Positions 2,915-32,453 of a stretch of 64,000 bases of DNA are shown piece after piece (the stretch's first letter is position 1; each line of letters opens with the position of its first letter). This stretch comes from Streptomyces tendae (GTDB taxonomy: Bacteria; Actinomycetota; Actinomycetes; Streptomycetales; Streptomycetaceae). A program made the position numbers and the translations under genes. The notes beneath the pieces were generated by a model, which saw nothing but the letters and a program-made list of their open reading frames with translations, was not told where the DNA came from and did not search any database. The DNA is taken from contig NZ_BMUY01000007.1 of assembly GCF_014650435.1 (NCBI RefSeq), positions 248,001-312,000 on the forward strand. Direction: 5' to 3'.

Positions 2915-2975
2915 GGTCTCCTCGGTGAATCCGTGAGTGGTTCGGAAGGTTGCCGGGTGTGCTGGGTGCGCTGGG

Positions 2976-5041: not shown

Positions 5042-5616
5042 CGGCCTACCTCCTTGCCTGCGTGGGAGTCGGCCGCCACCGCTTGTTCGCGCGTCCAGGC
5101 GCGGTAGCTCTCCTCGGTGAAGCCCGACGTGCCGTGGCGTTCGACCGAAGCCCGGATGGCGTCCAGCAGCTCCTCCGAATCGGTCTCGATGTCGATGTGC
5201 TCGACGAAGGGCTGTCGTGCCACGAGCCCGGTCCGCCAGTAGACCTCGCACCGGTTGCCCTCCGGGTCGAAGAAGTAGACGCCGACGGCGTTGCCGTGCG
5301 AGACGATCATGTCGAGCCGTACGTCGTGCTCCCTGAAACGCCGATGGAAGCCGAGGACGTCCTCGAATCGCGCGCACCGGAACGACACCTGCTGGATGAG
5401 TCTGACTCCGAGTGGCGCGTCCCGGCCCTCGGCCAGGAGCAGTTCGTGGTGTTCGGTGTCCGGCCTGGCGGACAGGAACCAGATGCCGAGCCGTTCGTCA
5501 TGGTCGGTGACCGTCAGCCCGAGTATGTCGCTGTAGAACGCCAGCTGTCGGCTCACATCGTGACAGCGCAGGCCCACGTGGCCGAGTTCCGCGACGGACG
5601 GCGATGAAGGTGTCAC
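5038..5616 (-). CDS. VOC-family extradiol-type dioxygenase
   Basis: 192-residue single glyoxalase/bleomycin-resistance fold protein of catechol 2,3-dioxygenase type. Possible metal ligands are the histidine of LGHVGLRC near the N-terminus, a second histidine in VSHGNAVGVYFFDPEGN, and the glutamate of CEVYW, which is the usual 2-His-1-Glu pattern. The GTG at 5616 follows a strong AGGAGG site. It is the first gene of the minus-strand operon and lies divergent from the IclR regulator. It probably opens a dihydroxylated ring produced by the FAD monooxygenase at 378-1931. A non-dioxygenase VOC role (isomerase, thiol transferase) cannot be excluded. Confidence 0.85.
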   Translation of the reverse strand: MTPSSPSVAELGHVGLRCHDVSRQLAFYSDILGLTVTDHDERLGIWFLSARPDTEHHELLLAEGRDAPLGVRLIQQVSFRCARFEDVLGFHRRFREHDVRLDMIVSHGNAVGVYFFDPEGNRCEVYWRTGLVARQPFVEHIDIETDSEELLDAIRASVERHGTSGFTEESYRAWTREQAVAADSHAGKEVGR

Positions 5617-5700
5617 GCCGGTCCTCCTGAACGGTGTTCCGTAGAGCAGATCATGTTCTGCAAGGTAACTCGGCTCGGATGCAGCGTCAACGGTCTGGTG

Positions 5701-5734
5701 TTCTGCTGAATGGATGGCGATCTGTTCAGCGGAA
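5701..5734. promoter_or_regulatory. candidate IclR operator (inverted repeat)
   Basis: Arms TTCTGCTGAA (5701-5710) and TTCAGCGGAA (5725-5734) are complementary at 9 of 10 positions across a 14-bp spacer. They lie in the 253-bp gap between the divergent VOC dioxygenase and IclR genes. Assignment to IclR is by position only. Confidence 0.5.
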
Positions 5735-5869
5735 CGAAGATTGGAGCGTGAGCGCTACGGAACGACAGCCGCGGAGGCGTGCGATCAGGCAGGTCACGCT
5801 ATTCTGGCTGGCGAAATGCAGTTCAATCACCAGAACAGCCGCCGGTGACGACGGCGAGAGGGAGGGCTC

Positions 5870-6628
5870 GTGGCAGCGTCGGCCGCCTACCCGGTGGAAT
5901 CGATCGACAACGCGGCACGAATCCTGCTGATGCTGGTGGACAATCCGTCGCTGCGAGTCACCGACGTGTCCGCCGAGCTGGGGGTGGCCAGGTCGACCGC
6001 CCATCGGATGCTGACCACCCTGCAGGCCCGCGACCTGCTCCGTCAGGACGCCCGGACCAAGGGCTACGGACCCGGGCCCGCCCTGGCCAGGCTCGGTATC
6101 GCCGTGATGGGGGCGGTCTCCCTCCGTGACGAAGCCCGGCTCCTGCTGGAAAGACTCGTAGAAGACACCTCCGAGACCGCGCATCTGCTCGTCCTGGAAG
6201 GGACGGAGACGGTCTTCGTCGAAGGTGTGGAGAGCCGGCAGGTGATCCGCGCCGGGCTGAGGACCGGGCAGCGAGGCCCGGCGCACGCGTCCGCCGCGGG
6301 CAAGGCGCTGCTCGCCGAGCTCTCCCGCGAAGAGCTGCGGCGCCGCTATTCTGGCGCGCGACTGCGAGGCGGGACCGAGCGCGCGGTCAGCACACGCCGG
6401 GCGCTTGAGGCCGAGCTCGAGAAGGTGAGGGAGACCGGCTACGCCACCAACATGGAGGAGAGTGAGTGGGACCTCTGTGCGGTGGCCGCCCCCGTACGGA
6501 ACCGGCAGGGCGTGGCCTGCGGAGCGCTGTCCGTATCCGGCCCGGCGAGGCGGACCGGGACCAAGCTCGCCCTGCTCAGCGTCGCCGTCGTCGCAGCCGC
6601 CACCGAACTCGGCGCGCGCCTCGGTTAG
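5870..6628 (+). CDS. IclR family transcriptional regulator
   Basis: 252 residues. The N-terminal winged helix (about 7-65: IDNAARILLML ... STAHRMLTTLQARDLLRQD) is followed by an IclR effector-binding domain (about 80-250, with GQRGPAHASAAGKALLAEL and ESEWDLCAVAAPVRN). The GTG at 5870 follows GGAGGG. It is divergent from the aromatic operon starting at 5616 and is the obvious local controller. IclR proteins in such loci are usually activated or released by the aromatic acid or a pathway intermediate. An inverted repeat at 5701-5734 is a candidate binding site. Confidence 0.93.
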   Translation: MAASAAYPVESIDNAARILLMLVDNPSLRVTDVSAELGVARSTAHRMLTTLQARDLLRQDARTKGYGPGPALARLGIAVMGAVSLRDEARLLLERLVEDTSETAHLLVLEGTETVFVEGVESRQVIRAGLRTGQRGPAHASAAGKALLAELSREELRRRYSGARLRGGTERAVSTRRALEAELEKVRETGYATNMEESEWDLCAVAAPVRNRQGVACGALSVSGPARRTGTKLALLSVAVVAAATELGARLG

Positions 6629-6793
6629 GCCCTGTCCGTTAGGTCATATGAGCTGATCGGGTGACGCTTCGGGCTCCTGCGCAGATCCGGTCACCCCCCT
6701 GCCGGGTGGCCTTCCACGATGACGGCCGTCGCCGCGTCGCCCCGGCCCGGGGATCGTTTGCGTGCCGCCCGTCAGGCGTGTTTGGCTCGCCCG

Positions 6794-7462
6794 ATGAACT
6801 TCCTGTTGACGGCGAGCGGCCTGCGCAACGAGACACTGCGGGATGCGCTGCGTGACATGCTGGGCAAACCGTTCGGATCGGCGAACGTCGTGTTCGTTCC
6901 CACCGCATCCGTCGCGGATCCCGGGGACCACGGGTGGGTCGTCGCGGACATGAACCGCCTGCACGGCCTCGGCTGGCGGGAGTTCGACATTCTGGAGCTG
7001 AACGGCCTGCCCCAGCAGCTGGTGCTCGACCGGCTGCTCCACGCCGATGTCGTCTACGTCGAAGGCGGCAACCACTATCACCTCGCCCGCAGCATCACCG
7101 GCAACGGTCTGGCCGAGGGCTTCCTGGAGGCGCTGCGGAGCCGTGTCTACGTGGGAGTCAGCGCCGGATCAATGATCTTCAGCCGCAACCTCACCGGACA
7201 CTCCGCCGACGTCATCGGGGATGCCACGGACCTCCACGTGCTCGGCGCGACGAGTGTGGAGCCGCCGTTCGGCCTCTTCGACTGGTACCTCAAGCCCCAC
7301 CTGTACTCGCCGGACTTCCCCGAGCGGGACGACGCCTGGGCCGACCGGATCACCGCGCGGGCGGACTTCCCGATCTACTTCATCGATGACGAGACGGCCG
7401 TTCGTGTCAGGGACGGCGAAGTGGATGTCGTATCCGAAGGCAGGTGGCGCTTCCACCCGTGA
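6794..7462 (+). CDS. peptidase S51 / dipeptidase E-like protein
   Basis: 222 residues from the ATG at 6794. The fold is that of aspartyl dipeptidase PepE (type 1 glutamine amidotransferase-like). It has the conserved VVYVEGGNHYHL segment and the nucleophile elbow GVSAGSM with Ser123. Family members cleave Asp-X dipeptides, or act on cyanophycin-like or other small peptides. The frame stays open 25 codons upstream (to 6719), but those residues are arginine-rich and do not match the family start MNFLLTASG. It is monocistronic, 165 bp after iclR and convergent with the TetR gene at 7520. Confidence 0.88.
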   Translation: MNFLLTASGLRNETLRDALRDMLGKPFGSANVVFVPTASVADPGDHGWVVADMNRLHGLGWREFDILELNGLPQQLVLDRLLHADVVYVEGGNHYHLARSITGNGLAEGFLEALRSRVYVGVSAGSMIFSRNLTGHSADVIGDATDLHVLGATSVEPPFGLFDWYLKPHLYSPDFPERDDAWADRITARADFPIYFIDDETAVRVRDGEVDVVSEGRWRFHP

Positions 7463-7519
7463 CCCCGTTGCCAGGCACCTCACTGGGAGGTTCCAGCACC
7501 GGCGACACGAGCGTGGGGT

Positions 7520-8077
7520 CTAGCGCAGTGCGGCGGCGACCAGCCCTTCGAGGGCCTCTCGCCGTACTTCGCCGCCGTTCACCAGTCGGTCGAAGACCAG
7601 TCCGTCGACACAGGTCAGCAGTGTGTGAGTGCGATTCTCGACGTCGGTCACGCCGTGCTCGGCGAGGAACAACCGGACGGCCTCGCGGCCGGCGTTCTCG
7701 CGGGGCACCAGGATCTCGCGCAGCTCTTTGTCGCGCACGCTCTCGACGGCGCAAGCGTGGCGGGCGAGCGAGCGGCGGCGGCCCGCGCCGGTGAGTCGCC
7801 GGCGGGTGAGTGCCACCATGCCGTCCACCAGTTCCTCGACGGTCCGCAGGGGTGGAAGCTGGTCGGCCGCCGTCCGGAGTTCCGCCTGGTCGAGCTGGAC
7901 CAGGCGGGCGACGAGCCCGGTCAGCAGCGCGGCACGGGTGCGGAAGTAGGCCGAGGTGGTGCCGGGCGGCATGGCCGCTCGGCGATCGACCGCGCGGTGG
8001 GTCAGCCCGCGCATCCCTTCGTCGGCGAGGACGTCGAGAGCCGCGTCTGCGAGGAGGGTGCGCCGATTCGAAGCCAT
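7520..8077 (-). CDS. TetR family repressor
   Basis: 185 residues. The N-terminal TetR helix-turn-helix spans about 8-50 (LADAALDVLADEGMRGLTHRAVDRRAA ... AYF) and the rest is a helical ligand domain. It is divergent from the FAD monooxygenase at 8151 with a 73-bp gap. That gap holds two near-identical 16-bp palindromes, one only 8 bp from this start codon. This arrangement implies self-repression and repression of the monooxygenase, relieved by a small molecule, probably the monooxygenase substrate. Confidence 0.92.
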   Translation of the reverse strand: MASNRRTLLADAALDVLADEGMRGLTHRAVDRRAAMPPGTTSAYFRTRAALLTGLVARLVQLDQAELRTAADQLPPLRTVEELVDGMVALTRRRLTGAGRRRSLARHACAVESVRDKELREILVPRENAGREAVRLFLAEHGVTDVENRTHTLLTCVDGLVFDRLVNGGEVRREALEGLVAAALR

Positions 8078-9461: not shown

Positions 9462-10337
9462 ATGAAGGCCATGACCACTTCCTCGTCTGCCGTCGACGTG
9501 CTGCGCTACGCGGCCTTCACCCCCCGCCCCGACGGGGGCAACCCGGCCGGTGTCGTCCTCGACGCCGCGCTGCTCGGGCCGGACCGCATGGGGGCGATCG
9601 CCGCCGAGGTCGGATACTCGGAGACGGCGTTCGTAACCACCCGCGACGAGGAGCGGCGCCGGCTCACACTCCGGTACTTCAGCCCTCTCGCCGAGGTCGC
9701 CTTCTGCGGCCACGCCACCGTGGCGACCGCGGTGGCTCTCGCCGAACGGCTGGGCCCCGGTGACCTGGTCTTCGACACGCCTGCCGGAGAGATCCCGGTG
9801 ACCACGGAGACGGACACCGACGGCGCGGTGCGGGCGACCCTCACCAGCGTGCCGACCCGGTCGCGGGAGGCGCGGACCGACGAGGTGGACGCGACGCTGT
9901 CCGCCCTGCGCTGGGACAGCGCCGACCTCGCCCCCGAGCTGCCGCCGCACGTCGCCTTCGCCGGCAACGACCACTTGATCCTCGCGGTCCGCTCCCGGGC
10001 CCGACTGGCCGACCTCGACTACGACTTCGACGCGCTTGCCGCACTCATGCGGAAGCACGGCTGGACGACCGTGCACCTGGTCTGGCGCGAGGACGAGCAG
10101 CGGTACCACGCGCGGGACCCCTTCCCGGTGGGCGGCGTGGTCGAGGACCCGGCGACCGGAGCCGCCGCGGCCGCGTTCGGTGGCTACCTGCGCACGGTCG
10201 GCGCACTGCCCGCGTCAGGCGTCGTCACCGTCCGGCAGGGGGAGGACATGGGCCGGCCCAGCGACCTCACCGTACGAACGGACCCGCACGGCGCACGCGT
10301 CCACGTCTCCGGCAACGCCGTACCGATCGTCGGCTGA
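9462..10337 (+). CDS. PhzF family isomerase-like protein
   Basis: About 291 residues with the two-lobed diaminopimelate-epimerase-like PhzF fold. The N-terminal DGGNPAGVVLDA and EVGYSETAFVT (with the catalytic Glu of the family), the segment YFSPLAEVAFCGHATVATAVAL, and the C-terminal FPVGGVVEDPATGAAAAAFGGYL are all family hallmarks. PhzF itself isomerises a dihydro-hydroxyanthranilate in phenazine synthesis. Most homologues have unknown substrates, and no other phenazine genes are nearby. The ATG at 9462 is preferred; an ATG nine bases downstream is equally possible. Confidence 0.88.
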   Translation: MKAMTTSSSAVDVLRYAAFTPRPDGGNPAGVVLDAALLGPDRMGAIAAEVGYSETAFVTTRDEERRRLTLRYFSPLAEVAFCGHATVATAVALAERLGPGDLVFDTPAGEIPVTTETDTDGAVRATLTSVPTRSREARTDEVDATLSALRWDSADLAPELPPHVAFAGNDHLILAVRSRARLADLDYDFDALAALMRKHGWTTVHLVWREDEQRYHARDPFPVGGVVEDPATGAAAAAFGGYLRTVGALPASGVVTVRQGEDMGRPSDLTVRTDPHGARVHVSGNAVPIVG

Positions 10338-10611
10338 CGAGGTCCGTCGGCGACGTGCCGGCTGCGTGAGATCCGCGCCGAGATCGTCCAAACCCGGGCC
10401 GACTGCGACGGGCCGCCGAACGGGAGGCGCCGATGAGTGGCCAGGCGGACCGGCACGGCCTGGAACGGGCCCGCCCCCTGTAAACCGGCGCTCGAGGTGT
10501 TCGTACGGGGTGCGGTGTCACGTGTCGGGTGCTCCGTGCTCCTCGGCGCCGTTGGCCGACGGGTGGAACTGGACAGCCTGTTGGCACAACGGTGAGGCGA
10601 GGGGGCTTGTG
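10338..10611. other. gap without a supported gene
   Basis: The 274 bp between the PhzF-like and EF-hand genes hold no convincing gene or strong hairpin. A 16-codon frame with a ribosome-binding-like GGGAGG (10433-10483) is too short and composition-neutral to call. The EF-hand promoter is presumably in the right half. Confidence 0.5.
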
Positions 10612-11157
10612 GTGGCCAGTGAGTTCCGCAGGACGAAGGTCCAGGCGATGTTCGACGTGTTCGACACGGACGGCAACGGCTTCCTGGAGGAGAGGGACTT
10701 CGAGGCGCTCGCCGCGCGGTGGAGCCGACTGCCGCGGGTGGCCGCGAGCCCGGAGCTGTCCCTACGGGTACGCGGCGTGATGATGGGATGGTGGCAGCAG
10801 CTGTCGGCCGCCGCCGACGCGAGCCGGCCCGGCCGGGTGAGCATGGACGAGCTGATGACCGTGGTCGAGCGGCTGCCGGCCATGGCGGAGGCCGTCACGG
10901 CCACGGCCGACACGATCTTCGACGCGGTGGACGAGAACGGTGACGGCCGTATCTCCCGTGACGAACACCAGCGGCTCGTCGACACGTGGCACGGCCGCGG
11001 CATGGCGACGCAGGACGTGTTCGACCGCCTCGACCAGGACGGCGACGGCTACCTCGGCCGGGCGGAGTTCGCGCTGCTGTGGACGCAGTTCTGGATCAGC
11101 GACGACCCGGCCGAGCACGGCAACGCGATGTGCGGCCCCGTCGCCCCCGCCGCCTGA
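10612..11157 (+). CDS. EF-hand calcium-binding protein (calerythrin-like)
   Basis: 181 residues with four EF-hand positions. Loops 1, 3 and 4 are canonical (DTDGNGFLEERD, DENGDGRISRDE, DQDGDGYLGRAE). Loop 2 (DASRPGRVSMDE) has lost ligands at positions 3 and 5. This is the sarcoplasmic-calcium-protein/calerythrin layout, a cytosolic Ca2+ buffer or sensor found in several actinomycetes. The GTG at 10612 follows a purine-rich AGGGGG; the GTG at 10609 is an alternative. No signal peptide or membrane segment is visible. It is monocistronic. Confidence 0.92.
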   Translation: MASEFRRTKVQAMFDVFDTDGNGFLEERDFEALAARWSRLPRVAASPELSLRVRGVMMGWWQQLSAAADASRPGRVSMDELMTVVERLPAMAEAVTATADTIFDAVDENGDGRISRDEHQRLVDTWHGRGMATQDVFDRLDQDGDGYLGRAEFALLWTQFWISDDPAEHGNAMCGPVAPAA

Positions 11158-11371
11158 GGCCACGGCAGCGACGGCTCATCGAGGCCCACGGCCCACGTGG
11201 TGGTGCGGACCCTGTCACACCGCGGGCCGTGGCGGCACAGCCGCGAGCAGCCGGTGCTCGCCAGCAGAGGTCAAGCGGTCCCGGACGGAAACGCGCGGAT
11301 GCGCCACAGGCGCGTGCGACACGTGGCGCGTGCGGTCGCGGCGAGCGCCAGGAGTGAGCGACAGTGGTTCC

Positions 11372-12142
11372 ATGTGCGGCCGGTACGTTTCCACCCGCGG
11401 TCCCGAGGACCTCGCCCGGCAGTTCCAGATCGCCGACCCGGACCTCGGCGATCCCCTCGCGCCGAGCTGGAACGTCGCGCCGACCGACGAGGTGTGGGCC
11501 GTCCTCGAGCGCCCCTCGCGCGACGCCTCCACGGGCGCTCCGGCGGCGCGGCACCTGCGTAGGCTGCGCTGGGGTCTGGTGCCGTCCTGGGCCCGCGACA
11601 CGAAGATCGGCGCCCGGCTGATCAACGCCCGGATGGAGACCGTCCACGAGAAACCGGCCTTCCGCACGGCGTTCGCCCGGCGCCGCTGCCTCCTGCCGGC
11701 CGACGGCTTCTACGAGTGGCAGCGCATCGAGGACCCGGAGACGGGAAGGACCCGGAAGCAGCCCTACTTCATCCACGCCGCCGACGACCAGGTGATGGCC
11801 CTGGCGGGGTTGTACGAGTACTGGCGCGACCCGGACGCCCGGCACGACGACGACCCGTCGGCCTGGCTGACGACCTGCACCATCATCACCACCGAGGCCA
11901 CGGACGACGCCGGACGCGTCCACCCCCGCATGCCGCTGACCGTGGCCGATGAGCACTACGACGTCTGGCTCGACCCTTCCCACCAGGAGACCGGCGCGTT
12001 GCGCGACCTGCTCGAGCAGCCGGCCGGCGGCCGGCTCGACGCCCGTCCCGTCTCCGCGGCGGTCAACAACGTCCGCAACAACGGTCCGCAGCTGGTCGAG
12101 GCGGTCACCGGCCCGGAAACCGGAGCCACTCCGTCCGATTGA
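11372..12142 (+). CDS. SRAP domain protein (YedK/HMCES-like abasic-site DNA-protein crosslinker)
   Basis: 256 residues beginning MCGRY. Cys2, exposed after removal of Met1, is the residue that links covalently to abasic sites in single-stranded DNA. The conserved asparagine (SWNVAPTDEV), RWGLVPSWA, NARMETVHEKPAFRTAF, LLPADGFYEWQ and the RVHPRMPLTV histidine are all present, so the protein should be active. The ATG at 11372 is fixed by the need for Cys2. It stands alone between the EF-hand and arginase-fold genes. The expected role is replication-linked protection of abasic sites. Confidence 0.95.
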   Translation: MCGRYVSTRGPEDLARQFQIADPDLGDPLAPSWNVAPTDEVWAVLERPSRDASTGAPAARHLRRLRWGLVPSWARDTKIGARLINARMETVHEKPAFRTAFARRRCLLPADGFYEWQRIEDPETGRTRKQPYFIHAADDQVMALAGLYEYWRDPDARHDDDPSAWLTTCTIITTEATDDAGRVHPRMPLTVADEHYDVWLDPSHQETGALRDLLEQPAGGRLDARPVSAAVNNVRNNGPQLVEAVTGPETGATPSD

Positions 12143-12218
12143 GCCCCCGGCCCATGAACAACCGCCGCCTCGCGAAAGACCGGTTGAACGCCGAGCGCCC
12201 GACGGCAAGGATGACGCC

Positions 12219-13124
12219 ATGCGAAGCATCATGGTCATGGACGCCCCCTCCAACCTGGGGCTGCGCCCGCCGGCCCCCGGCACCGTCCCCGGCTGCTACA
12301 AGCTGGCCGGGGCGCTGCGGGACAACGGGATCGTACGCAGGCTCGGCGCCCTCGAAGGAGGCGTCGTCGTGCCGCCCCGCTACGACCGCGGCGACTGGCA
12401 GGAGGGCGACGGCGTCTTCAACGCACGCGCCCTCGCCGCCTACACACGCACCCTCGCCGACCGCATCGAGCCGCACGTGTCCGCCGGTCACTTCACCCTG
12501 GTCCTCGGCGGGGACTGCTCCATCCAACTCGGCGCCGCGCTGGCCCTGCGCCGTCTCGGCCGGTACGGCCTGGTGTCGATCGACGCCTCTCCCGACTTCC
12601 GCCATCCGGGCACCTCCGACCGGATCGGCGCCGCCGGGGGAGAGGAACTCGCCCTCGCGACCGGGCGCGGGCAGGAGGACCTGACGGACCTCGAAGGGCT
12701 GCGGCCCTACCTCCGGGACGAGGACGTCCGGCTCTTCGGCACCCGGGACGCCTTCGTGGACGACGAGGACGTCGCCGAGCTGCGCGGGCTGAAGGTCCCC
12801 GTCACCACCGTCTCCGACCTGCGCCGCACCGACCCCGCAGACCTGGGCGCCGCGACCGCCGCCGACCTCGATGCGGCAGCACTCGACGGCTTCTGGATCC
12901 ACCTGGACGCCGACGTCCTCGACCCCTCGGTGATGCCCGCGGTCGACAGCCCGGACCCCGACGGACTGCTGCCCCGCGAAGTCACCGCCCTGCTGCGCCC
13001 GCTCGTCCGTTCCCCGCGCTGTGCGGGGCTCAACGTCACCATCTACGACCCCGACCTGGACCCGGACGGCAGCGCCGGCGTCCTCCTGACGGACCTGGTG
13101 GTGGCCGCCTTCACCACCGACTGA
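12219..13124 (+). CDS. arginase/agmatinase-fold protein with altered metal ligands
   Basis: 301 residues with an arginase fold. The metal motifs are recognisable but changed. GGDHS is GGDC (Cys100), DAHxD is DASPD (Asp122, Ser124, Asp126), and the last pair is intact (LDADVLDP, Asp230 and Asp232). Two of the six usual Mn2+ ligands, both histidines, are therefore replaced. Cys at the first position occurs in some actinobacterial relatives; Ser at the third is less usual as far as I know. It may use one metal or have lost ureohydrolase activity. The ATG at 12219 follows AAGGA. Confidence 0.85.
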   Translation: MRSIMVMDAPSNLGLRPPAPGTVPGCYKLAGALRDNGIVRRLGALEGGVVVPPRYDRGDWQEGDGVFNARALAAYTRTLADRIEPHVSAGHFTLVLGGDCSIQLGAALALRRLGRYGLVSIDASPDFRHPGTSDRIGAAGGEELALATGRGQEDLTDLEGLRPYLRDEDVRLFGTRDAFVDDEDVAELRGLKVPVTTVSDLRRTDPADLGAATAADLDAAALDGFWIHLDADVLDPSVMPAVDSPDPDGLLPREVTALLRPLVRSPRCAGLNVTIYDPDLDPDGSAGVLLTDLVVAAFTTD

Positions 13125-24488: not shown

Positions 24489-25490
24489 ATGCCCCAGGAA
24501 ACGCCCGAGGACGCCATCGACGACCTGGACCGCCGTGTCATCGCGGCGCTCCAGCTCAACGGTCGTGCCCCCTGGAGCGCGGTGGGGCGCTGGGTGGGCG
24601 CCAGCGAGACCACCGCGCAGCGCCGCTACACGGCGCTGCGCGAGCGAGGGCTGCTGCGGGTGTCCGGAACCCTGGAGCTGGACCGGACACGGGAGGGATC
24701 CTCCATGATGGTCCGCGTCCAGACCCGCCCCGGCCGCGGGCTGGAGGCCGCGGCCCGGTTCAGCGAGAGCCCCGACGTCCGCTTCGTCGCCGTCGTCACC
24801 GGATCGGCCGACCTCGTCGTCGACTTCGTCGCCCGTGACAACGAGGAGATGATGCGGATGCTGTTCACCGACCTTCCCGCGACCGACCTCATCACGAGCA
24901 CCGAGGTGGTTCCCGTCATCCGGTCCTTCACCTCGGCGGCGATGTGGGACACCGGGCTGCTCCCGCCCCAAGCGGCCGCCGACCTGCGGCCCGCCCCGAC
25001 CCCGGGCGACCGCACCGACCGGGAGCGCGCGCCACAAGCGCTCACCCCGCTCGAGCAGGAGATCGCCGCGGCGTTGCGGGAGGACGGCCGGACCCAGGTC
25101 AGCGTCCTCGCCCGGCGCCTGAACCGCGCCGAATCAAGCGTCGCACGCGCCATGGACCGGCTCATCTCCCGCGGCATCCTCCAGTTCCGCACCCTCGTCG
25201 AGCCCTCACTCCTCGGCTTCGACGCGGAGTTCATGGTGTGGCTGTCCATCCAGCCCGGACAACTGGACGCCGCCGGCAGACAGCTCGCCGGGCATCCGGG
25301 GACGAAGTTCCTGAGCGCGGCGACCGGGCGCTTCAACCTCATCGGGCACATGGTGCTGCCCCGGCGTGCCGACCTCCACCCCTACACCAGCAACGTCATC
25401 GGATCGCTTCCCGGACTCATCGCATCCGACGTGACGCTGCACCTCGCCACCGTGAAGTACTCCTGGTACCGGATGAACCGGCCCGTCTGA
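24489..25490 (+). CDS. Lrp/AsnC family regulator with two tandem Lrp modules
   Basis: 333 residues, about twice the usual Lrp length. HTH 1 (about 10-60: DDLDRRVIAALQLNGRAPWSAVGRWVGASETTAQRRYTAL) and an AsnC ligand domain (about 75-145) are followed by HTH 2 (about 185-240: LTPLEQEIAAALREDGRTQVSVLARRLNRAESSVARAMDRL) and a second ligand domain to the end. Such proteins sense amino acids or similar small molecules. The mRNA is probably leaderless. The stop codon lies inside a 15-bp tandem repeat. It is co-directional with the catabolic operon at 25741-31071, which it probably controls. Confidence 0.92.
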   Translation: MPQETPEDAIDDLDRRVIAALQLNGRAPWSAVGRWVGASETTAQRRYTALRERGLLRVSGTLELDRTREGSSMMVRVQTRPGRGLEAAARFSESPDVRFVAVVTGSADLVVDFVARDNEEMMRMLFTDLPATDLITSTEVVPVIRSFTSAAMWDTGLLPPQAAADLRPAPTPGDRTDRERAPQALTPLEQEIAAALREDGRTQVSVLARRLNRAESSVARAMDRLISRGILQFRTLVEPSLLGFDAEFMVWLSIQPGQLDAAGRQLAGHPGTKFLSAATGRFNLIGHMVLPRRADLHPYTSNVIGSLPGLIASDVTLHLATVKYSWYRMNRPV

Positions 25491-25740: not shown

Positions 25741-26691
25741 ATGTCCTCAGATGACGGCAACCCGCCCGCAGAGAGCTGGCGCTGGTCCGAGACCACGTGG
25801 CGCGGTCACGTCGACGCCGTGCGCGCCGGACGGCGCCTGGTCCCCGACCGCTGGCCCGGCGACGCCCGCGTCGCCGTCGCCGTGTCGTTCGACTCCGACC
25901 ACGAGACGATCCCCCTGCGCGACGGGGAGACCAGCCCGGGCCGACTGGCCCAGGGAGAGTACGGAGCCCGCACCGGCGCTCCGAGGATCCTCGACCTGCT
26001 GGCGCACTACGGCGTGCCCGCCACCTTCTTCATGCCGGCCGTCTCCGCCCTCCTCCACCCCGAGGAAGCCCGCGCCTACACGAGGGACGGGCACGAACTG
26101 GCCGTCCACGGCTGGATCCACGAGCGGAACATGCTGCTGGGTCGTGCAGACGAGCGGGACCTGACCGCACGCGCCCTCGACACGCTCACGACGCTGACCG
26201 GGCAGCGACCGGTCGGCATCCGGACCCCCTCCTGGGACTTCTCCGACTCGACCCTCGACATCATGCTCGAGCTCGGGTTCGCCTACGACTCCTCGCTCAT
26301 GGCCGACGACGAGCCCTACGAGATCGTCGCCGCGGGACGCCCCACGGGCCTCGTCGAGATCCCCGTCGACTGGATCCGTGACGACGCGCCGTACTTCACG
26401 ATGGACCGCTACGGCTCCGTCCGCCCCTACAGCCGGCCCCGCGACGTGGGCGAGATCTGGCGGGACGAGTTCGACGCCGCCCACCGCGACGGCGGGGTCT
26501 TCCAGCTCACGCTGCATCCCCACGTCATCGGCCACCGCTCACGCCTCGTGGTGCTGCGCGAGCTCCTCGACCACATCACGGCCCACCCGGGCGTGTGGTT
26601 CGCCACCCACGCCCAACTGGCAGACGCCGCCCGCGGCCTGCTGCACGGATCCACCTCCGTCCGTCCCGTCCCCTCGGAGCGCACCCCATGA
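25741..26691 (+). CDS. polysaccharide deacetylase (NodB/PuuE-type) family hydrolase
   Basis: 316 residues. The NodB core has Asp51/Asp53 in SFDSDHE, the zinc histidines His123 and His127 (HGWIHE), GIRTPSWDFS and the C-terminal LTLHPHVIGH. There is no signal peptide, so it is cytosolic. The layout fits the PuuE/cyclic-imidase branch that acts on small amides or imides rather than cell-wall glycans. A GTGGAG ribosome-binding site precedes the ATG. It is the first gene of a four-gene operon and its stop overlaps the MFS start (ATGA). The substrate is inferred only as a small amide-type compound. Confidence 0.88.
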   Translation: MSSDDGNPPAESWRWSETTWRGHVDAVRAGRRLVPDRWPGDARVAVAVSFDSDHETIPLRDGETSPGRLAQGEYGARTGAPRILDLLAHYGVPATFFMPAVSALLHPEEARAYTRDGHELAVHGWIHERNMLLGRADERDLTARALDTLTTLTGQRPVGIRTPSWDFSDSTLDIMLELGFAYDSSLMADDEPYEIVAAGRPTGLVEIPVDWIRDDAPYFTMDRYGSVRPYSRPRDVGEIWRDEFDAAHRDGGVFQLTLHPHVIGHRSRLVVLRELLDHITAHPGVWFATHAQLADAARGLLHGSTSVRPVPSERTP

Positions 26692-28016
26692 ACACCAGAT
26701 CCGCCACGCCCGCAGGACCCCGAAAAGAGGAGGGCGTCGTGTCCGCCCCGGGGAAACTGAGTGCCGGCCAGCGCAAGGCCATCGTCGCAGGCACCATCGG
26801 CAACACCGTCGAATGGGTGGACTGGGCGCTGTACTCGATCTTCGCGAAGATCATCGCGGACGAGTTCTTCCCCAAGGGGGACGGCGCGGTCGCCCTGCTT
26901 TCGACCCTCGCCGTGTTCGCGGTCGGCTTCGTCATGCGCCCGATCGGCGCCGCCGTGCTCGGTGCCTACGCCGACCGCCGCGGCCGCAAGAAGGGCATGA
27001 CGCTCACCGTGGCCCTGATGGCGGGGGCAGGCTTCCTGATCGCCATCACCCCCTCCTACCAGCAGATCGGTGTCCTGTCGCCGCTGCTGCTGGTCGTCGC
27101 CCGCCTCGTGCAGGGCTTCTCCGCAGGCGGCGAGTTCGGTTCGTCCTCCGCCTTCCTCGTCGAGTCCGCCGCGCGGGGCCGCCGCGCCTTCGCCGGTTCC
27201 TGGCAGCAGGTGTCGGTCGCCGGTGGTGTTCTGATCGCCTCGCTCCTGGGCACCCTCACCACCTCGTGGCTCAGCGACGACGCCCTGCACGCCTGGGGCT
27301 GGCGCGTCGCGTTCGTCGTCGGCGCACTGCTGGGCCTGGTCGGCCTGTGGCTGCGCGTCTCGGTCCAGGACACGGAGTCCTTCACCCGGACCCAGGACAG
27401 CGGCCGTACCCGCACGAACCCCGTCAAGGCGATGTTCGTCGAGCACCCGGCGGCGACGCTGCGGGTCGCCGGCATCACGATCGCGGGCACCCTCACTTAC
27501 TACATCTGGGTCAACTACCTGCCCACGTACGCGAACCTGACCACCGGCATCCCGCTGAACACGGCACTGCTCTCGCAGACCCTGTGCCTGGTCGTCTTCG
27601 TGATCGCGCTGCCCTTCGCCGGAGTGCTCTCCGACCGGCTCGGGCGCAAGCCGACGATGGCCGGTTTCGCCGGCGGGTTCGTCGTCCTGGCCTGGCCGCT
27701 GCTGCACCTGCTCGGCAACAGCTTCCTCAGCCTGTTCCTGGTCCAGCTCGTGGGCATGCTGCTCATCCTCGGCTACTCCGCCAACTGCGCCGTCATCATG
27801 GCCGAGCAGTTCCCCGCGGAGGTCCGTGCGACCGGCATCGCCCTGCCCTACGCCCTGGCCGTCGCCGTATTCGGCGGCACGGCGCCGTACGTCACGACGT
27901 GGATGCACGAGAGCGGCCACAGCGACCTGCTCTGGATCTACGTGGCCGTCGCCTCGTTGATCTCCCTCGTCGTCTACCTCACGATGCCCGAGACCAAGGA
28001 CAAGGAATTCAAGTGA
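26688..28016 (+). CDS. MFS transporter, metabolite:H+ symporter family
   Basis: 442 residues with 12 predicted membrane segments. The N-terminal GTIGNTVEWVDWALYSIFAKIIADEFFP and the loop motif GAYADRRGRKKGM are typical of the ProP/KgtP/ShiA branch, which imports organic acids, betaines and amino-acid-like compounds with protons. RLVQGFSAGGEFGSSS (segment 4-5) and SDRLGRKP in the second half are also conserved. It is translationally coupled on both sides (ATGA upstream, GTGA downstream), which points to uptake of the pathway substrate. Confidence 0.93.
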   Translation: MNTRSATPAGPRKEEGVVSAPGKLSAGQRKAIVAGTIGNTVEWVDWALYSIFAKIIADEFFPKGDGAVALLSTLAVFAVGFVMRPIGAAVLGAYADRRGRKKGMTLTVALMAGAGFLIAITPSYQQIGVLSPLLLVVARLVQGFSAGGEFGSSSAFLVESAARGRRAFAGSWQQVSVAGGVLIASLLGTLTTSWLSDDALHAWGWRVAFVVGALLGLVGLWLRVSVQDTESFTRTQDSGRTRTNPVKAMFVEHPAATLRVAGITIAGTLTYYIWVNYLPTYANLTTGIPLNTALLSQTLCLVVFVIALPFAGVLSDRLGRKPTMAGFAGGFVVLAWPLLHLLGNSFLSLFLVQLVGMLLILGYSANCAVIMAEQFPAEVRATGIALPYALAVAVFGGTAPYVTTWMHESGHSDLLWIYVAVASLISLVVYLTMPETKDKEFK

Positions 28017-28840
28017 CGCGCCACGTTCTCCTCACCGGCGCCGCGGGCGGCATCGGCAGCGCCATCGCCGAGGCGTTCGCCGCCCAGGGGACGTTCCTCA
28101 CGCTCAGTGACCGCGACCAGGACGCACTCCGGGCCACGGCCACCCGCTTCGGCGACGGTGCCGCGGCCCTGACCGCCGACCTGACCGACCCCCGGGCGGC
28201 TGCCGGCCTCGTCGAAGAGGCATGGAAGGCGCACGGTCCGGTGGACGTCCTGATCAACGCGGCCGGCAGCTACCCCTCTCTGGACATGGCCCAGGTCGAC
28301 GCCGGGGCCTGGGACCGGCTGTTCGCCCTCAACCTGCGCGCCCCCGTTCTGACCACCGCGGCCCTCGCCCGCCTCGCCATGGCGGCGGGCCGGCCCGGCA
28401 GCGTCGTCAACATCTCCTCCGGATCCGCCCTGCGTTCACGCCCGGGCGGCGGACCGTACGCCAGCTCCAAGGCAGCCCTCGAGATGGCCACCCGGGCCGC
28501 CGCCCTCGAACTGGGCGTTCACGCCATCCGCGTCAACGCGGTCAGTCCCGGCTTCGTCCTGGTCGACAGCGACTGCAACCCCGTCTCCGCCGAGTACGCC
28601 GAGGCCATCGGCGTCAACCCGCTCGGGCGCCCGGGGACACCCGAGGACGTCGCCCGCGCCGTGTGCTGGATCGCGGGCCCCGAGGCATCCTGGATCACCG
28701 GTGAGGTGCTCCGGGTCGACGGCGGGTCGAGCACCGGGGCCCTCCAGCTCCCCAGGATCTGGCAGACCGACGGCACCCGCGCCACCGCCGCCCGCGCACC
28801 CCTCGCGGCCGTCACCACGACAGAGGAAAACGCCCGATGA
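28013..28840 (+). CDS. short-chain dehydrogenase
   Basis: 275-residue classical SDR. It has GAAGGIG, NAAGSYPS, ISSGSALRSRPGG, YASSKAALEM (Tyr/Lys), PGFVLVDSD and a GEVLRVDGG tail, plus about 30 extra C-terminal residues. The GTG at 28013 overlaps the MFS stop, and its own stop overlaps the fusion gene's ATG. It would oxidise or reduce a hydroxy/keto intermediate of the imported compound; the specificity is unknown. Confidence 0.92.
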   Translation: MTRHVLLTGAAGGIGSAIAEAFAAQGTFLTLSDRDQDALRATATRFGDGAAALTADLTDPRAAAGLVEEAWKAHGPVDVLINAAGSYPSLDMAQVDAGAWDRLFALNLRAPVLTTAALARLAMAAGRPGSVVNISSGSALRSRPGGGPYASSKAALEMATRAAALELGVHAIRVNAVSPGFVLVDSDCNPVSAEYAEAIGVNPLGRPGTPEDVARAVCWIAGPEASWITGEVLRVDGGSSTGALQLPRIWQTDGTRATAARAPLAAVTTTEENAR

Positions 28841-31071
28841 GCGACACCACCCAGGAACGGACCGCCTACACGATCGTCGGCGCCGGAGCGATCGGCGGGA
28901 CCCTCGCCTTCGCCCTGGCCCGCGCGGGCCACCCCGTCACCCTCGTCGACACCGACCGCGCGCACGTCGACGCCCTGCGCACCCACGGACTCGTCCTCGT
29001 CGCGGCCGACGGCGGCCGCACGAGCATCCCGGTCACCGCGACCACCCCCGACGACTTCACCGGACCGCTCGAACGCGTCCTGCTCGCGGTGAAGGCACAG
29101 GCCACCCGGAGCGCCGTCGACTGGATCGCCCCCCGCCTGGCCCCGGACGGATACGTCGTCTCCGTACAGAACGGCTTCAACGAGGAACTGATAGCACGAC
29201 TGGTCGGCGGCGACCGCACCGTCGCCGCCTTCGTCAACATCTTCGCCGACGTCGCCGAGCCCGGAGTGATCCAGGACGGCGGCCCGGGTGCCCTCGTCGT
29301 CGGCGAACCCGGCGGTGCACCCGTCAGCGACCGCGTCCGCGCCCTCGTCGCCGACCTGCAGAGCTGGGGTCCCGCGCGGGCCAGTGACAACGTCGAGGGC
29401 TACCTGTGGGCCAAGGCGGGATTCGGCGCCATGCTCGCCGCCACCGCCCTCGCCGACGCTCCCATGGCCGACCTGATCGACCGTCACCGACCCGCCATGG
29501 CCCGGCTCACGGCGGAGATCTTCGCCGTTGCCGACCGGCGCGGCGTCACACTCGAGGCGTTCGACGCCTTCGACCCCCGCCCCTTCCGGCAGGGAGCGGA
29601 CAGCGCCGTGCGCGATGCCGCCTTCGACCGCCTCACCGCCTGGCTGCGCACCCAGCCGAAGGACCGCAGCGGCATCTGGCGCGACCTGGCAGTCCGCCAC
29701 CGCCCCGTCGAGGTCACCACTCACTACGGCGACGTCATCGACCACGCCACCGACATGGGACTGCCCACAACCCTCCTGCGGTCCGTCCTGGACGGGCTGC
29801 GCGAACTCGAGGGAGCACCGCACACGATGTCCGAAGCGCGACTCGACGCCCTCGATGCCCTCGACCGTCTCGCCCCGCGCTCCGCGGGACTGGTCCCTCC
29901 CGGGGACGAACAGGCCGGGGCCGTCCTGCGCCGGCTGGAGCTCCACAGGGAGGACATGGTCGCCGACCTGGCCGCATACACCGCCCGGGGCAGCGCCAGC
30001 GACGATCTGGAGGCCCTGGACGCCTGCCTCGCCTGGCTGCGCCAGTGGCTCGACCGGCGGCTGGGACCGCCGGAGACGGAAGAGATCATTCCGTGTGCCG
30101 AGGCCGGCGACATCATGATCCGCCGGTACCCGGCGCGCGGCGCCACGGCGGCCGATGAACGCCCGGTGATGCTGGTGGGCCACTACGACACCGTCTGGCC
30201 GACCGGCACCCTGGACGACTGGCCCTTCCGCCGGGAGGGCGACACCATCAGCGGGCCCGGCGTCTTCGACATGAAGGCGGGCCTCGTCCAAGCGGTCTGG
30301 GCGCTGCGCGCGCTCGACGTGCTCGGCCTGCCCCGGCCGGCCGTAACCCTCGTGCTCAACGGCGACGAGGAGACCGGAAGCCTCGCGTCCCACGAGGCCC
30401 TGGTCGAGGCGGGCCGCGACTGCCGGCTCGCCCTGGTCTTCGAAGGCGCGGCCGACGGGGCCATCAAGACCGCCCGCAAGGGGGTCGGCCTGTTCACCCT
30501 CACCGTCACGGGCAGCGAGGCCCACGCGGGACTCGACCCCACCGCGGGAGCCAGCGCGGTGGACGAACTCGCCCGCCAGATCCTGCGGCTGACGGAGCTG
30601 CGCGACCACGCGGCCGGAACCTCCCTCAACGTCGGAGTGATCGAAGGTGGGACACGCAGCAACGTCACGGCCGGCCGCGCCCATGCCCATCTGGACGTCC
30701 GCGTGGCCACCGACGCCGAACGGCGGCGCATCGCGCAGGCCCTCGCCGACCTGCGCCCCGTCGACGCCCATACGCGCCTGGAGGTCACCGGGGACTGGAA
30801 CCGCCCCGTCTTCGAACGCAACGAAGACGTCGCGGAACTCGCGGACCTGGCCAAGGCCTGCGCCCGTCGGCTCGGCCACGACCTCGCGGAGGCGTCGGTC
30901 GGCGGAGCGAGCGACGGCAACTTCCTCGTGGCAGCCGGCATACCGGTGCTGGACGGCATCGGGGCGGTCGGGCACGGCGCCCACGCCCGTTCGGAGCGCA
31001 CATCCGTGTCCGAAATGATCACCCGTGCCGCGCTGGCTGCCACCATCCTCACTACGCTCGCCGAGAAGTGA
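28837..31071 (+). CDS. fusion: ketopantoate reductase-like dehydrogenase + M20 carboxypeptidase
   Basis: 744 residues in one uninterrupted frame. Residues 1-330 are a ketopantoate-reductase (ApbA/PanE) module with GAGAIGG (15-21), VQNGF (110-114) and the catalytic lysine in WAKAGFG (Lys193). The conserved PanE asparagine four residues later is Gly. A linker (about 335-370) joins an M20 metallopeptidase of the CPG2/ArgE type. Its motifs are GHYDTVWP (His449, Asp451), FDMKAG (Asp478), DEETGS (Glu511/512), FEGA (Glu536) and GHGAHARSE (His713/716). All metal ligands appear present, so both halves could be active. It is the last gene of the coupled operon. I know no described protein with this fusion. 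Confidence 0.92.
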   Translation: MSDTTQERTAYTIVGAGAIGGTLAFALARAGHPVTLVDTDRAHVDALRTHGLVLVAADGGRTSIPVTATTPDDFTGPLERVLLAVKAQATRSAVDWIAPRLAPDGYVVSVQNGFNEELIARLVGGDRTVAAFVNIFADVAEPGVIQDGGPGALVVGEPGGAPVSDRVRALVADLQSWGPARASDNVEGYLWAKAGFGAMLAATALADAPMADLIDRHRPAMARLTAEIFAVADRRGVTLEAFDAFDPRPFRQGADSAVRDAAFDRLTAWLRTQPKDRSGIWRDLAVRHRPVEVTTHYGDVIDHATDMGLPTTLLRSVLDGLRELEGAPHTMSEARLDALDALDRLAPRSAGLVPPGDEQAGAVLRRLELHREDMVADLAAYTARGSASDDLEALDACLAWLRQWLDRRLGPPETEEIIPCAEAGDIMIRRYPARGATAADERPVMLVGHYDTVWPTGTLDDWPFRREGDTISGPGVFDMKAGLVQAVWALRALDVLGLPRPAVTLVLNGDEETGSLASHEALVEAGRDCRLALVFEGAADGAIKTARKGVGLFTLTVTGSEAHAGLDPTAGASAVDELARQILRLTELRDHAAGTSLNVGVIEGGTRSNVTAGRAHAHLDVRVATDAERRRIAQALADLRPVDAHTRLEVTGDWNRPVFERNEDVAELADLAKACARRLGHDLAEASVGGASDGNFLVAAGIPVLDGIGAVGHGAHARSERTSVSEMITRAALAATILTTLAEK

Positions 31072-31107: not shown

Positions 31108-31968
31108 TCAGTGCCCGACGCCGCGCATCAGTCCCTCGAGGTCGCGTTCGCCGGCCGGTGTCTGCGCCCCGGCCCGCAGCCCCCCGCTGATCAGGTGCTG
31201 AGCGGACGGCAGACTGAACGTGGAGGCCCAGGCGTCGTTCTCACGGAGAAGTCCTGCCGTGAAGTCGTCGGCGGGCAGCGAGTGCTTGACTGCTTCGATG
31301 ACACCGTCGGGCAGCGCGGCGATGTTGCGGGCGACGCGGTCGACGTACTCGTCGAGCTCGTCGGCCGGCAGGGCCCGGTTGATCCATCCGTAGGACGCCG
31401 CCGTCCGGGCATCGAACAAGTCGGCTGTGAGGATCACTTCCAGTGCGCGGTTGCGACCCACGCGGTCTCGGAGGTACTGCGTTCCGCCTCCGCCGGGGAC
31501 GATGCCCATGAGCGCTTCGATCTGACCGAGCCCGGCGGTCTCGACGGCGCCGAATGCCATGTCCGCTGCGGCCACGAATTCTGCCCCGCCTCCGCGGGCC
31601 TTCCCGGCGAGCTTCACGATGGTCACCTGCGGCTGATGGCGTATCAGCTCACCGATCGCCTGGAACACGTTGACGTCGGCCGGCGCGGATGCGGCGAGTT
31701 CCTGGAGGGTGTCCATCTCCTCCCCGATGTGCATGTCCACGTGAGCAATGAAGAATTCAGGGTCGGCGCTCGAGAAGACGACCACGCGGACGGAGGGATC
31801 GTCCTTGAGGTCCGTCAGTACCGTCCGCAGCTCGCGCATCATCGCCGTGCCGAGCGCGTTCACCGGGGGATTGTCGAGCACGATCCGGGCGACTCCGTGT
31901 TCGCTGCTCACGCGCAGGGTCGAGTAGGCATCGTTCGTCACCAGGTTCTCCGGGTTCCCGTAGGCCAT
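31108..31968 (-). CDS. enoyl-CoA hydratase/isomerase (crotonase) family protein
   Basis: 286 residues with a crotonase fold. The second oxyanion-hole and acid region is standard (KARGGGAEFVAAAD, IEALMGIVPGGGGTQYL). The first oxyanion-hole segment is atypical: EFFIAHVDMH (71-80) instead of the usual AGADL type. CoA binding or catalysis may therefore differ. The ATG at 31968 is chosen; a TTG four codons upstream is possible. It is divergent from the HxlR gene at 32046, and the gap contains a 21-bp palindrome. Confidence 0.88.
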   Translation of the reverse strand: MAYGNPENLVTNDAYSTLRVSSEHGVARIVLDNPPVNALGTAMMRELRTVLTDLKDDPSVRVVVFSSADPEFFIAHVDMHIGEEMDTLQELAASAPADVNVFQAIGELIRHQPQVTIVKLAGKARGGGAEFVAAADMAFGAVETAGLGQIEALMGIVPGGGGTQYLRDRVGRNRALEVILTADLFDARTAASYGWINRALPADELDEYVDRVARNIAALPDGVIEAVKHSLPADDFTAGLLRENDAWASTFSLPSAQHLISGGLRAGAQTPAGERDLEGLMRGVGH

Positions 31969-31969
31969 A

Positions 31970-31990
31970 TAGGTTTGCAATGCATACCTA
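31970..31990. promoter_or_regulatory. candidate HxlR operator
   Basis: TAGGTTTGC (31970-31978) and GCATACCTA (31982-31990) flank AAT and match at 8 of 9 positions. It sits 2 bp from the crotonase start and within the divergent gap to the HxlR gene. Confidence 0.6.
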
Positions 31991-32045
31991 CCGTCGGCGG
32001 TGACGCCCAGATGGTCAAGAACGCACTTTGGGAGTACCTGGGATC

Positions 32046-32453
32046 GTGAAGGACACTGGTTTGCAAGGCGTGGACGCCGAACAGCGGACGGTTTTCCGGG
32101 CGGACTGCCCCAGTCGGCCGATCCTCGACCAGATCGCGGACAAGTGGTCGATGATGGTGATGGCGCTGCTGGAGCGGCCCACCCGGTTCAATGAACTGAA
32201 GCGAGGGCTGGAGGGCATCACGCAGCGTGTCCTCACCCAGACACTGCGCCGACTCGAGCGCAACGGCATGATTCGGCGCACGGTGCTGGCGACCTCGCCG
32301 GTCGGCGTCGAGTACTCGCTCACACCACTGGGCGAGTCCCTGCGCGAGCCGTTCGGCCATCTCTACGACTGGACCGTGGAGCACAGCGGAGAGATCCAGA
32401 ACTGCCAGCGGGCGTACGACACCAGGGCTGACGCACGCCCGCCTGTTCGGTGA
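32046..32453 (+). CDS. HxlR family transcriptional regulator
   Basis: 135 residues with the HxlR winged helix (ILDQIADKWSMMVMALLERPTRFNELKRGLEGITQRVLTQTLRRLERNGMIRR). The N-terminal cysteine in FRADCPSRP is conserved, so it may be redox- or electrophile-responsive. The GTG at 32046 follows GGGA. It is divergent from the crotonase and 153 bp upstream of the quinone reductase at 32607; either or both may be its targets. Confidence 0.92.
   Translation: MKDTGLQGVDAEQRTVFRADCPSRPILDQIADKWSMMVMALLERPTRFNELKRGLEGITQRVLTQTLRRLERNGMIRRTVLATSPVGVEYSLTPLGESLREPFGHLYDWTVEHSGEIQNCQRAYDTRADARPPVR

Follow-up and report, generated by a model that had tools for sequence, protein, structure and literature searches.

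A ketopantoate-reductase-like dehydrogenase joined to an M20 metallopeptidase in one reading frame, at the end of a conserved operon in Streptomyces

In a stretch of 64,000 nucleotides from Streptomyces tendae (contig NZ_BMUY01000007.1, positions 248,001 to 312,000 of the forward strand; the whole of this stretch is called the window below), a complete dehydrogenase of the ApbA/PanE type, referred to here as the ketopantoate reductase (KPR)-like half, is joined to a complete M20 metallopeptidase resembling carboxypeptidase G2 (CPG2) within a single open reading frame. The frame runs without interruption from ATG to stop over 744 codons at 28837-31071 (+ strand), its ATG lying in a 4-nt overlap with the stop codon of a short-chain dehydrogenase (SDR) gene, and it is the last gene of a conserved operon that comprises an Lrp/AsnC regulator, a PuuE-like amidohydrolase, a symporter of the major facilitator superfamily (MFS), the SDR and the fusion itself.

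All four Pfam domains of the fusion exceed their gathering cut-offs, which serve as the Pfam thresholds here. The KPR-like half, placed at residues 11-330 (28867-29826, +) by Pfam, alignments and fold, contains ApbA at residues 12-158 (6e-30, 104.3 bits against a cut-off of 22.2) and ApbA_C at residues 185-325 (5e-10, 40.3 bits against 22.7), with D38, K86, N112, K193, G197, S278 and E292 as its marker residues; the M20 half, placed on corresponding evidence at residues 360-744 (29914-31068, +), contains Peptidase_M20 at residues 445-738 (4e-24, 86.0 bits against 24.6) and M20_dimer at residues 545-639 (1.5e-18, 67.1 bits against 21), with H449, D478, E511, E512, E536, H563 and H716. In the AlphaFold model the two parts appear as mostly confident domains (mean predicted local distance difference test score, pLDDT, 86.2), pLDDT falling below 50 only at residues 1-5 and at residues 345-354 (29869-29898, +); the latter form the junction, a linker whose length and sequence differ between species. 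The predicted template modelling score (pTM) of 0.53 provides no confident arrangement of one domain relative to the other. The structure prediction and one alignment (A1) were built from 26 of the 42 fused sequences described below, a profile (A2) was built from 15 KPR sequences, and the rows of the fold comparison test mostly residues 358-744. An earlier sequence-only reading of this DNA had described the 744-codon frame, the dehydrogenase landmarks (GAGAIGG at 15-21, QNG at 111-113, Lys193, and Gly197 where PanE has Asn) and a complete M20 domain with all its metal ligands, and every one of these features is borne out.

That reading had also named what could undo it, namely homologues that are always two separate genes, with this case owed to a sequencing error removing a stop or frameshift near residues 335-370. 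A scan of a genome collection, seeded with six short peptides and so no proof that the fusion is absent elsewhere, yielded 55 loci, 42 of which have the two halves within a single stop-to-stop frame (41 if the frameshifted locus L032 is excluded); by their titles 41 of the 42 are Streptomyces and one is [Kitasatospora] papulosa. With 41 other loci showing a single frame and no frameshift, chance is ruled out, as is an error of sequencing or assembly at residues 335-370, and the fusion is accordingly real. L032 itself (9964-12267) is a decayed KPR-M20 gene whose frame shifts near residue 170, and its locus has no match to the PuuE-like, MFS or SDR gene. In four further loci (L052-L055) the match is to the M20 half alone, and they were omitted from the count of fused and split loci. 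Separate-gene homologues do exist, albeit only outside the fused clade: nine unfused loci were found, from Saccharopolyspora (2), Amycolatopsis (2), Agrococcus (3), Paenarthrobacter (1) and Streptomyces sp. 8L (1), and in eight of them KPR and M20 are neighbouring genes. In all eight of these two-gene loci the M20 gene has a start codon that overlaps the KPR stop by 4 nt, and three of them have a further start close downstream.

A tree was calculated from 51 rows, comprising the window, the 41 fused loci without a frameshift, the eight two-gene loci and L077 as outgroup; L032 was left out, as was L046, an unfused locus with KPR and no M20. All 42 fused rows form one clade (support 99/94), adjoined by the two Saccharopolyspora rows, and a single change is enough to explain the fusion on this tree. 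Given this one clade, and the adjacent, overlap-capable genes of eight of the nine unfused relatives, a single origin of the fusion is probable, from two genes standing side by side in this way.

Both enzymes appear to have been kept since. Fourteen active-site positions are identical in 42/42 fused rows, and the ratio of nonsynonymous to synonymous substitution rates (dN/dS) between the window and five relatives (L001, L002, L003, L004 and L015) is 0.19-0.39 for the KPR-like half and 0.20-0.28 for the M20 half, as would apparently result from purifying selection on both; for the linker region it is 0.38-0.90, a noisy figure taken from only 31 codons. The linker is 2-259 residues long in 41 of the 42 fused rows. 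In L030 (9998-12151), a fused copy missing the linker and the first M20 residues, the KPR-like half runs directly into the M20 half, while the linkers of L043 and L036, of 259 and 115 residues, are low-complexity repeats within an otherwise conserved enzyme. Judged from the conserved active sites and dN/dS values as against the variable linker, the spacing of the halves is free while both enzymes are retained, and since linkers range from 0 to 259 residues a strict geometry between the halves is unlikely.

As to what the dehydrogenase half may do, the obvious point of reference is Escherichia coli PanE, for which the portions of the publications drawn on here give Lys176 as the general acid and Asn98, Asn180, Asn184, Ser244 and Glu256 as residues in substrate binding (PMC3478992, PMC10127515). 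The equivalents of the catalytic residues (K193, N112, S278, E292) are present in 42/42 fused rows, and in the wider family Lys193, Asn112 and Glu292 occur in 21/21 members and Ser278 in 20/21, with Met in L077. The equivalent of Asn180 is Gly197 in 21/21 members, and the position of Asn184 (201) is Ala, Thr, Val or Phe in the family, being Ala201 in the window protein; the catalytic Glu is preceded by a G-I/V-W-R-D-L (GIWRDL-type) motif. An Asp at the end of strand beta-2 of a Rossmann fold favours NAD, and in NADPH-type enzymes the end of this strand carries an Arg. In the fusion this Arg is absent and D38 occupies the place, as Asp38 does in 21/21 family members from three phyla. Among KPR-family structures in the Protein Data Bank (PDB), an Asp stands in this position in 8wl1 (D-mandelate dehydrogenase) and in 2ew2, and 3hwr has Ala-Arg there; NADH figures in the titles of two D-mandelate dehydrogenase entries, 3wfj and 5x20.

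Judged by sequence together with fold (comparison with the ketopantoate reductase 5ayv gives Z 33.1, root-mean-square deviation (rmsd) 2.3 and 293 aligned residues), the KPR-like half is a member of the PanE/ApbA superfamily. It is probably not PanE, nor is ketopantoate probably its substrate, because Asp38 stands at the end of beta-2, the two substrate Asn residues are lost and a separate PanE-like gene exists in the genome; the sequence-only reading had doubted ketopantoate from the Gly alone, and the doubt is supported. The separate gene (L058) has a gap at the Asp38 column followed by Ala-Arg and keeps both substrate Asn residues, making it the better PanE candidate of this genome. That the KPR-like half might even so be a true ketopantoate reductase of pantothenate synthesis, fused to a peptidase by chance, is hardly credible: it does score above the cut-off of the 2-dehydropantoate 2-reductase subfamily model TIGR00745 (154.7 against 141.35), but the residues just listed, the existence of L058, the operon content and a patchy presence in the genus all speak against this. 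It is very unlikely, if a little less so, that the half, instead of being a 2-hydroxy acid dehydrogenase, belongs to the dehydrogenases of opine type (N-carboxyalkyl amino acid) or to those of imines, an idea prompted by peptide importers and peptidases in the neighbourhoods and by a weak match (E 8.5e-6) between the N-terminal part of the KPR profile and N-(1-D-carboxylethyl)-L-norvaline dehydrogenase (1bg6); this match is limited to the Rossmann part, whereas the C-terminal half is ApbA_C with the Lys, Ser and Glu of PanE.

In the peptidase half the positions H449, D478, E511/E512, E536 and H716 are identical in 42/42 fused rows, and we take their roles as metal ligands and catalytic Glu to be those of CPG2. 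The nearest NCBIfam models are all below cut-off (PRK07338, 235 against 357; the glutamate carboxypeptidase model PRK06133, 198.2 against 349; PRK07473, 189.5 against 386). Paralogues of the M20 half (42-47% identity) stand beside AbgT-family transporters in L052 (8149-9789) and L083 (1478-2962), with no KPR match within the stretches fetched for these two loci. Together with an AbgT gene inside the operon of L106, a related region described below, this placement hints at an N-acyl amino acid as substrate. A folate or p-aminobenzoyl-glutamate substrate was considered and not adopted, as the SDR, KPR and PuuE-like genes have no known place in such a pathway.

The sequence-only reading had further proposed checking whether the neighbours of the gene are conserved, making no mention of the operon or of its counterparts in other phyla, and they are conserved. 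Reading along the + strand of the window, the operon consists of a regulator of Lrp/AsnC type (24489-25490; by Pfam, HTH_AsnC and AsnC_trans_reg with a second helix-turn-helix), a PuuE-like amidohydrolase of the polysaccharide-deacetylase family that is a candidate cyclic imide or amide hydrolase (25741-26691; Polysacc_deac_1, 2e-17), an MFS metabolite:H+ symporter (26688-28016; TIGR00883-like at 397.1 bits, below the cut-off of 443.45), the SDR (28013-28840; adh_short_C2, 6e-53) and the fusion, with 4-nt overlaps at the three junctions PuuE-like/MFS, MFS/SDR and SDR/fusion, the MFS gene starting with ATG and the SDR gene with GTG. Of 51 loci (L001-L051), 49 have the MFS and SDR genes and 48 the PuuE-like gene; the regulator lies upstream on the same strand in 36 (45-95% identity), and six more have a weak Lrp match (23-26%) on the other strand, it being noted that in L016 and L022 the available sequence starts too close. 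By comparison, eight window genes flanking the operon were searched for in the same loci, four being without a match and four giving only scattered matches of 30-39%. The PuuE-like protein scores 101.5 against the allantoinase model TIGR03212, well short of its cut-off of 424.6, and its nearest PDB matches are 3rxz, 3qbu (HpPgdA) and the PuuE structure 3cl6; the part of the HpPgdA publication used here argues for a small-molecule pocket and places the protein near PuuE (PMC3084791). Just past the operon lie, divergently arranged, an enoyl-CoA hydratase-family gene (31108-31980, -), which has no match in the 51 loci, and a regulator of HxlR type (32028-32453, +), for which these loci give one weak match only (38%, in L001, far from the operon).

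Further afield, members of the same KPR subfamily are encoded in regions that were hand-picked from match lists, so that no frequencies should be inferred from them. In L077 (genome G290, a distant member of the phylum) MFS, SDR, M20, M28, CapA and KPR genes stand in a row, the CapA-like (PGA_cap) and M28 peptidase genes lying between M20 and KPR at 4869-7746. The operon of L106 has a gene for an AbgT-family transporter (10455-12014; PF03806, 1e-153) separating KPR from M20, and another AbgT gene lies upstream, at 2674-4287. Plasmids of Sulfitobacter, Alloyangia and Sagittula carry GntR, creatininase-family, KPR, SDR, PuuE-like and isoaspartyl peptidase genes, adjoined by a divergent ABC importer, of peptide type where the ATPase is labelled; Pfam confirms Asparaginase_2 in L085. 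Deinococcus plasmids carry an ABC importer, GntR, a creatininase-family gene and KPR, and then, partly rearranged, SDR, a dipeptidase, a gene of RraA type (which in L087 has a different label) and a carboxypeptidase; in L096, the only Deinococcus row so checked, Pfam identifies the dipeptidase as M20 and confirms RraA-like and M32. A similar row in Octadecabacter includes a MarR regulator and a dipeptidase. Overall, the KPR subfamily in other phyla often has as neighbours peptide importers and genes labelled dipeptidase, M32, M14 or isoaspartyl peptidase, with an RraA-type aldolase in some cases. The recurring pairs are KPR with SDR and SDR with PuuE-like, and the amide hydrolase is the exchangeable part.

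With these elements a pathway can be proposed, tentatively and at somewhat less than even chances, in which the fusion would be a catabolic bifunctional enzyme, one half hydrolysing an amide-linked acid and the other oxidising a 2-hydroxy acid with NAD. The symporter would import a small, amide-linked (peptide-like) acid, which the SDR and the PuuE-like hydrolase would prepare, the SDR perhaps making a cyclic imide that the hydrolase opens to a 2-hydroxy half-amide, by analogy with fungal HxnW and HxnM. The M20 half would then cut the amide bond, and the KPR-like half, with its NAD-type Asp38, would oxidise the 2-hydroxy acid, the 2-oxo acid so formed passing to central metabolism. The fusion would keep the two enzymes, as partners in one pathway, in constant 1:1 proportion. 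The sequence-only reading had likewise paired, as putatively consecutive steps, hydrolysis of an N-acyl or amide bond with 2-keto acid chemistry, and such a pairing in one pathway is still the best reading, but it had named reduction as the redox step, where the evidence now leans towards NAD-linked oxidation. Pantothenate is one possible substrate class; for its breakdown, by M20 as pantothenase and KPR acting on pantoate, no supporting gene set was recognised, and a literature search covering open-licence papers gave no paper recognisable as dealing with such genes.

Two rivals concern the relation between the steps. The halves might share an operon and yet act on unrelated intermediates, the fusion fixing ratio and expression and having no catalytic meaning; this is unlikely, though it must be taken seriously in view of linkers that vary so widely in composition as well as length, of a pTM that gives no confident domain arrangement, and of the genes that come between those for the two halves elsewhere (AbgT in L106, two others in L077). 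Against it, the neighbouring, overlap-capable genes in eight of the nine unfused close relatives point to closely linked steps, and peptidases lie near KPR in many other regions inspected. Alternatively the KPR-like half might act first, or in the reverse direction, reducing a 2-oxo acyl amide or oxidising the intact conjugate before M20 frees the acid. Dehydrogenases of this kind are reversible, the family is named for reduction and an NAD-type pocket is compatible with reduction by NADH; nevertheless the invariance of Asp38 in the family and the catabolic-looking operon favour NAD-linked oxidation, making this order of events decidedly improbable.

It must be remembered that a number of observations count against the proposed catabolic role of the fusion. 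The direction of the redox step rests on one cofactor residue, Asp38; no assay was found; the score against TIGR00745, the 2-dehydropantoate 2-reductase subfamily model, is above cut-off; and the linker is too variable in length for a fixed channel. M20 is not always beside the rest, as the 21 kb of L046 contain KPR and the upstream genes and give no match to M20, and in Roseomonas L089 and Neorhizobium L095 KPR has no adjacent peptidase. Where KPR is more distant (34%), in Lichenicola L103 and D. ficus L104, the adjoining gene encodes a Gfo/Idh dehydrogenase and not an SDR. The stretches fetched around the KPR genes of Deinococcus and Octadecabacter gave no PuuE-like gene, and the hydroxy-half-amide scheme therefore cannot hold for all members. 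Nor do the genes always travel in a way that fits a single story: Paroceanicella L090, Agrobacterium L091, Methylobacterium L097 and Roseomonas L099 have SDR and PuuE-like genes without KPR, and Rhizobium L088 has PuuE-like and M20 genes without KPR or SDR.

How widely the fusion occurs was estimated from samples of genomes, each a draw. In the sample of the genus, 12 of 246 genomes hold both halves (E up to 1e-60); ten of these carriers keep an apparently intact single frame, eight as one full-length match and two, G397 and G520, with a long linker between the halves, and the copies in the other two (G437, G436) are damaged. In the class sample the halves are fused in 2 of 394 genomes, G000 and G785, both of the same genus (E up to 1e-75, with frames derived from coordinates), and three others (G823, G797, G873) have both halves in different frames. 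Among the matches listed for the phylum sample a full-length match occurs in one of 296 genomes, which is the window's own. Because carriers are few in all three samples the operon is a patchy accessory trait, and no fusion was seen outside Streptomyces-type records in the genome-collection scan or in the samples of phylum, genus and class.

Both halves are members of known families, while for their fusion or its operon no recognisable description emerged from literature searches covering open-licence papers. Since the fusion arose once on the tree and has stayed intact in dozens of genomes, it suggests that the two halves serve one pathway, and it makes the substrate of related operons in three phyla approachable through a single gene. 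It also ties to amide hydrolysis and peptide uptake a dehydrogenase subfamily that is labelled as an enzyme of pantothenate biosynthesis: four plasmid records call the KPR gene 2-dehydropantoate 2-reductase, three of them with a pantothenate-biosynthesis Gene Ontology (GO) term, in what is likely to be a misannotation. A broader proposal, to be regarded as doubtful though possible, is that the NAD-type KPR-like subfamily (Asp38, Gly197, G-I/V-W-R-D-L) may define an undescribed pathway for breakdown of amide- or peptide-linked 2-hydroxy acids in Actinomycetota, Pseudomonadota and Deinococcota, in which the amide hydrolase paired with it would differ from lineage to lineage, the pair having been fused in one lineage of Streptomyces.

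Set beside known systems, the KPR-like half shares with E. coli PanE/ApbA, as described in the portions of the sources cited above, both Pfam domains, GxGxxG, QNG, the catalytic Lys (K193), Ser278, Glu292 and Lys86, and differs in Asp38, in Gly197 and Ala201, in the GIWRDL-type motif, in its catabolic-looking operon and in being joined to M20. D-mandelate dehydrogenase is alike in fold (5x20, Z 32.3), in the beta-2 Asp of 8wl1 and in NADH as titled for 3wfj and 5x20; it is unlike in lacking a peptidase half, in its low identity (21% for 5x20 in the fold comparison) and in the Asn that 8wl1 has four residues after the Lys, where the family of the fusion has Gly. For the M20 half CPG2 (1cg2) is the closest named protein in both fold and sequence (2e-31; Z 41.9, rmsd 3.4, 380 aligned residues), but identity is only 26%, and the M20 half is fused and stands in a different operon. 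The Rhodobacterales and Deinococcus plasmid operons (L085, L086, L092, L096, L100-L102, L105) resemble that of the window in having the KPR subfamily (39-43% identity) with an adjacent or nearby SDR and, in L085, L086, L092 and L100, a PuuE-like gene (60-61%); they differ in that the genes are separate, an isoaspartyl or other peptidase takes the place of the CPG2-like M20, an ABC importer takes that of the MFS symporter, and a creatininase-family gene is present. Finally, in the fungal nicotinate (hxn) pathway, as far as the part of the publication drawn on here describes it, an SDR, a cyclic-imide hydrolase and an amide hydrolase (HxnW, HxnM and HxnN) lead in that order to a 2-hydroxy acid (PMC9304392), a succession like the one proposed above; the system being fungal and its amidase of a different type, the resemblance is one of analogy only.

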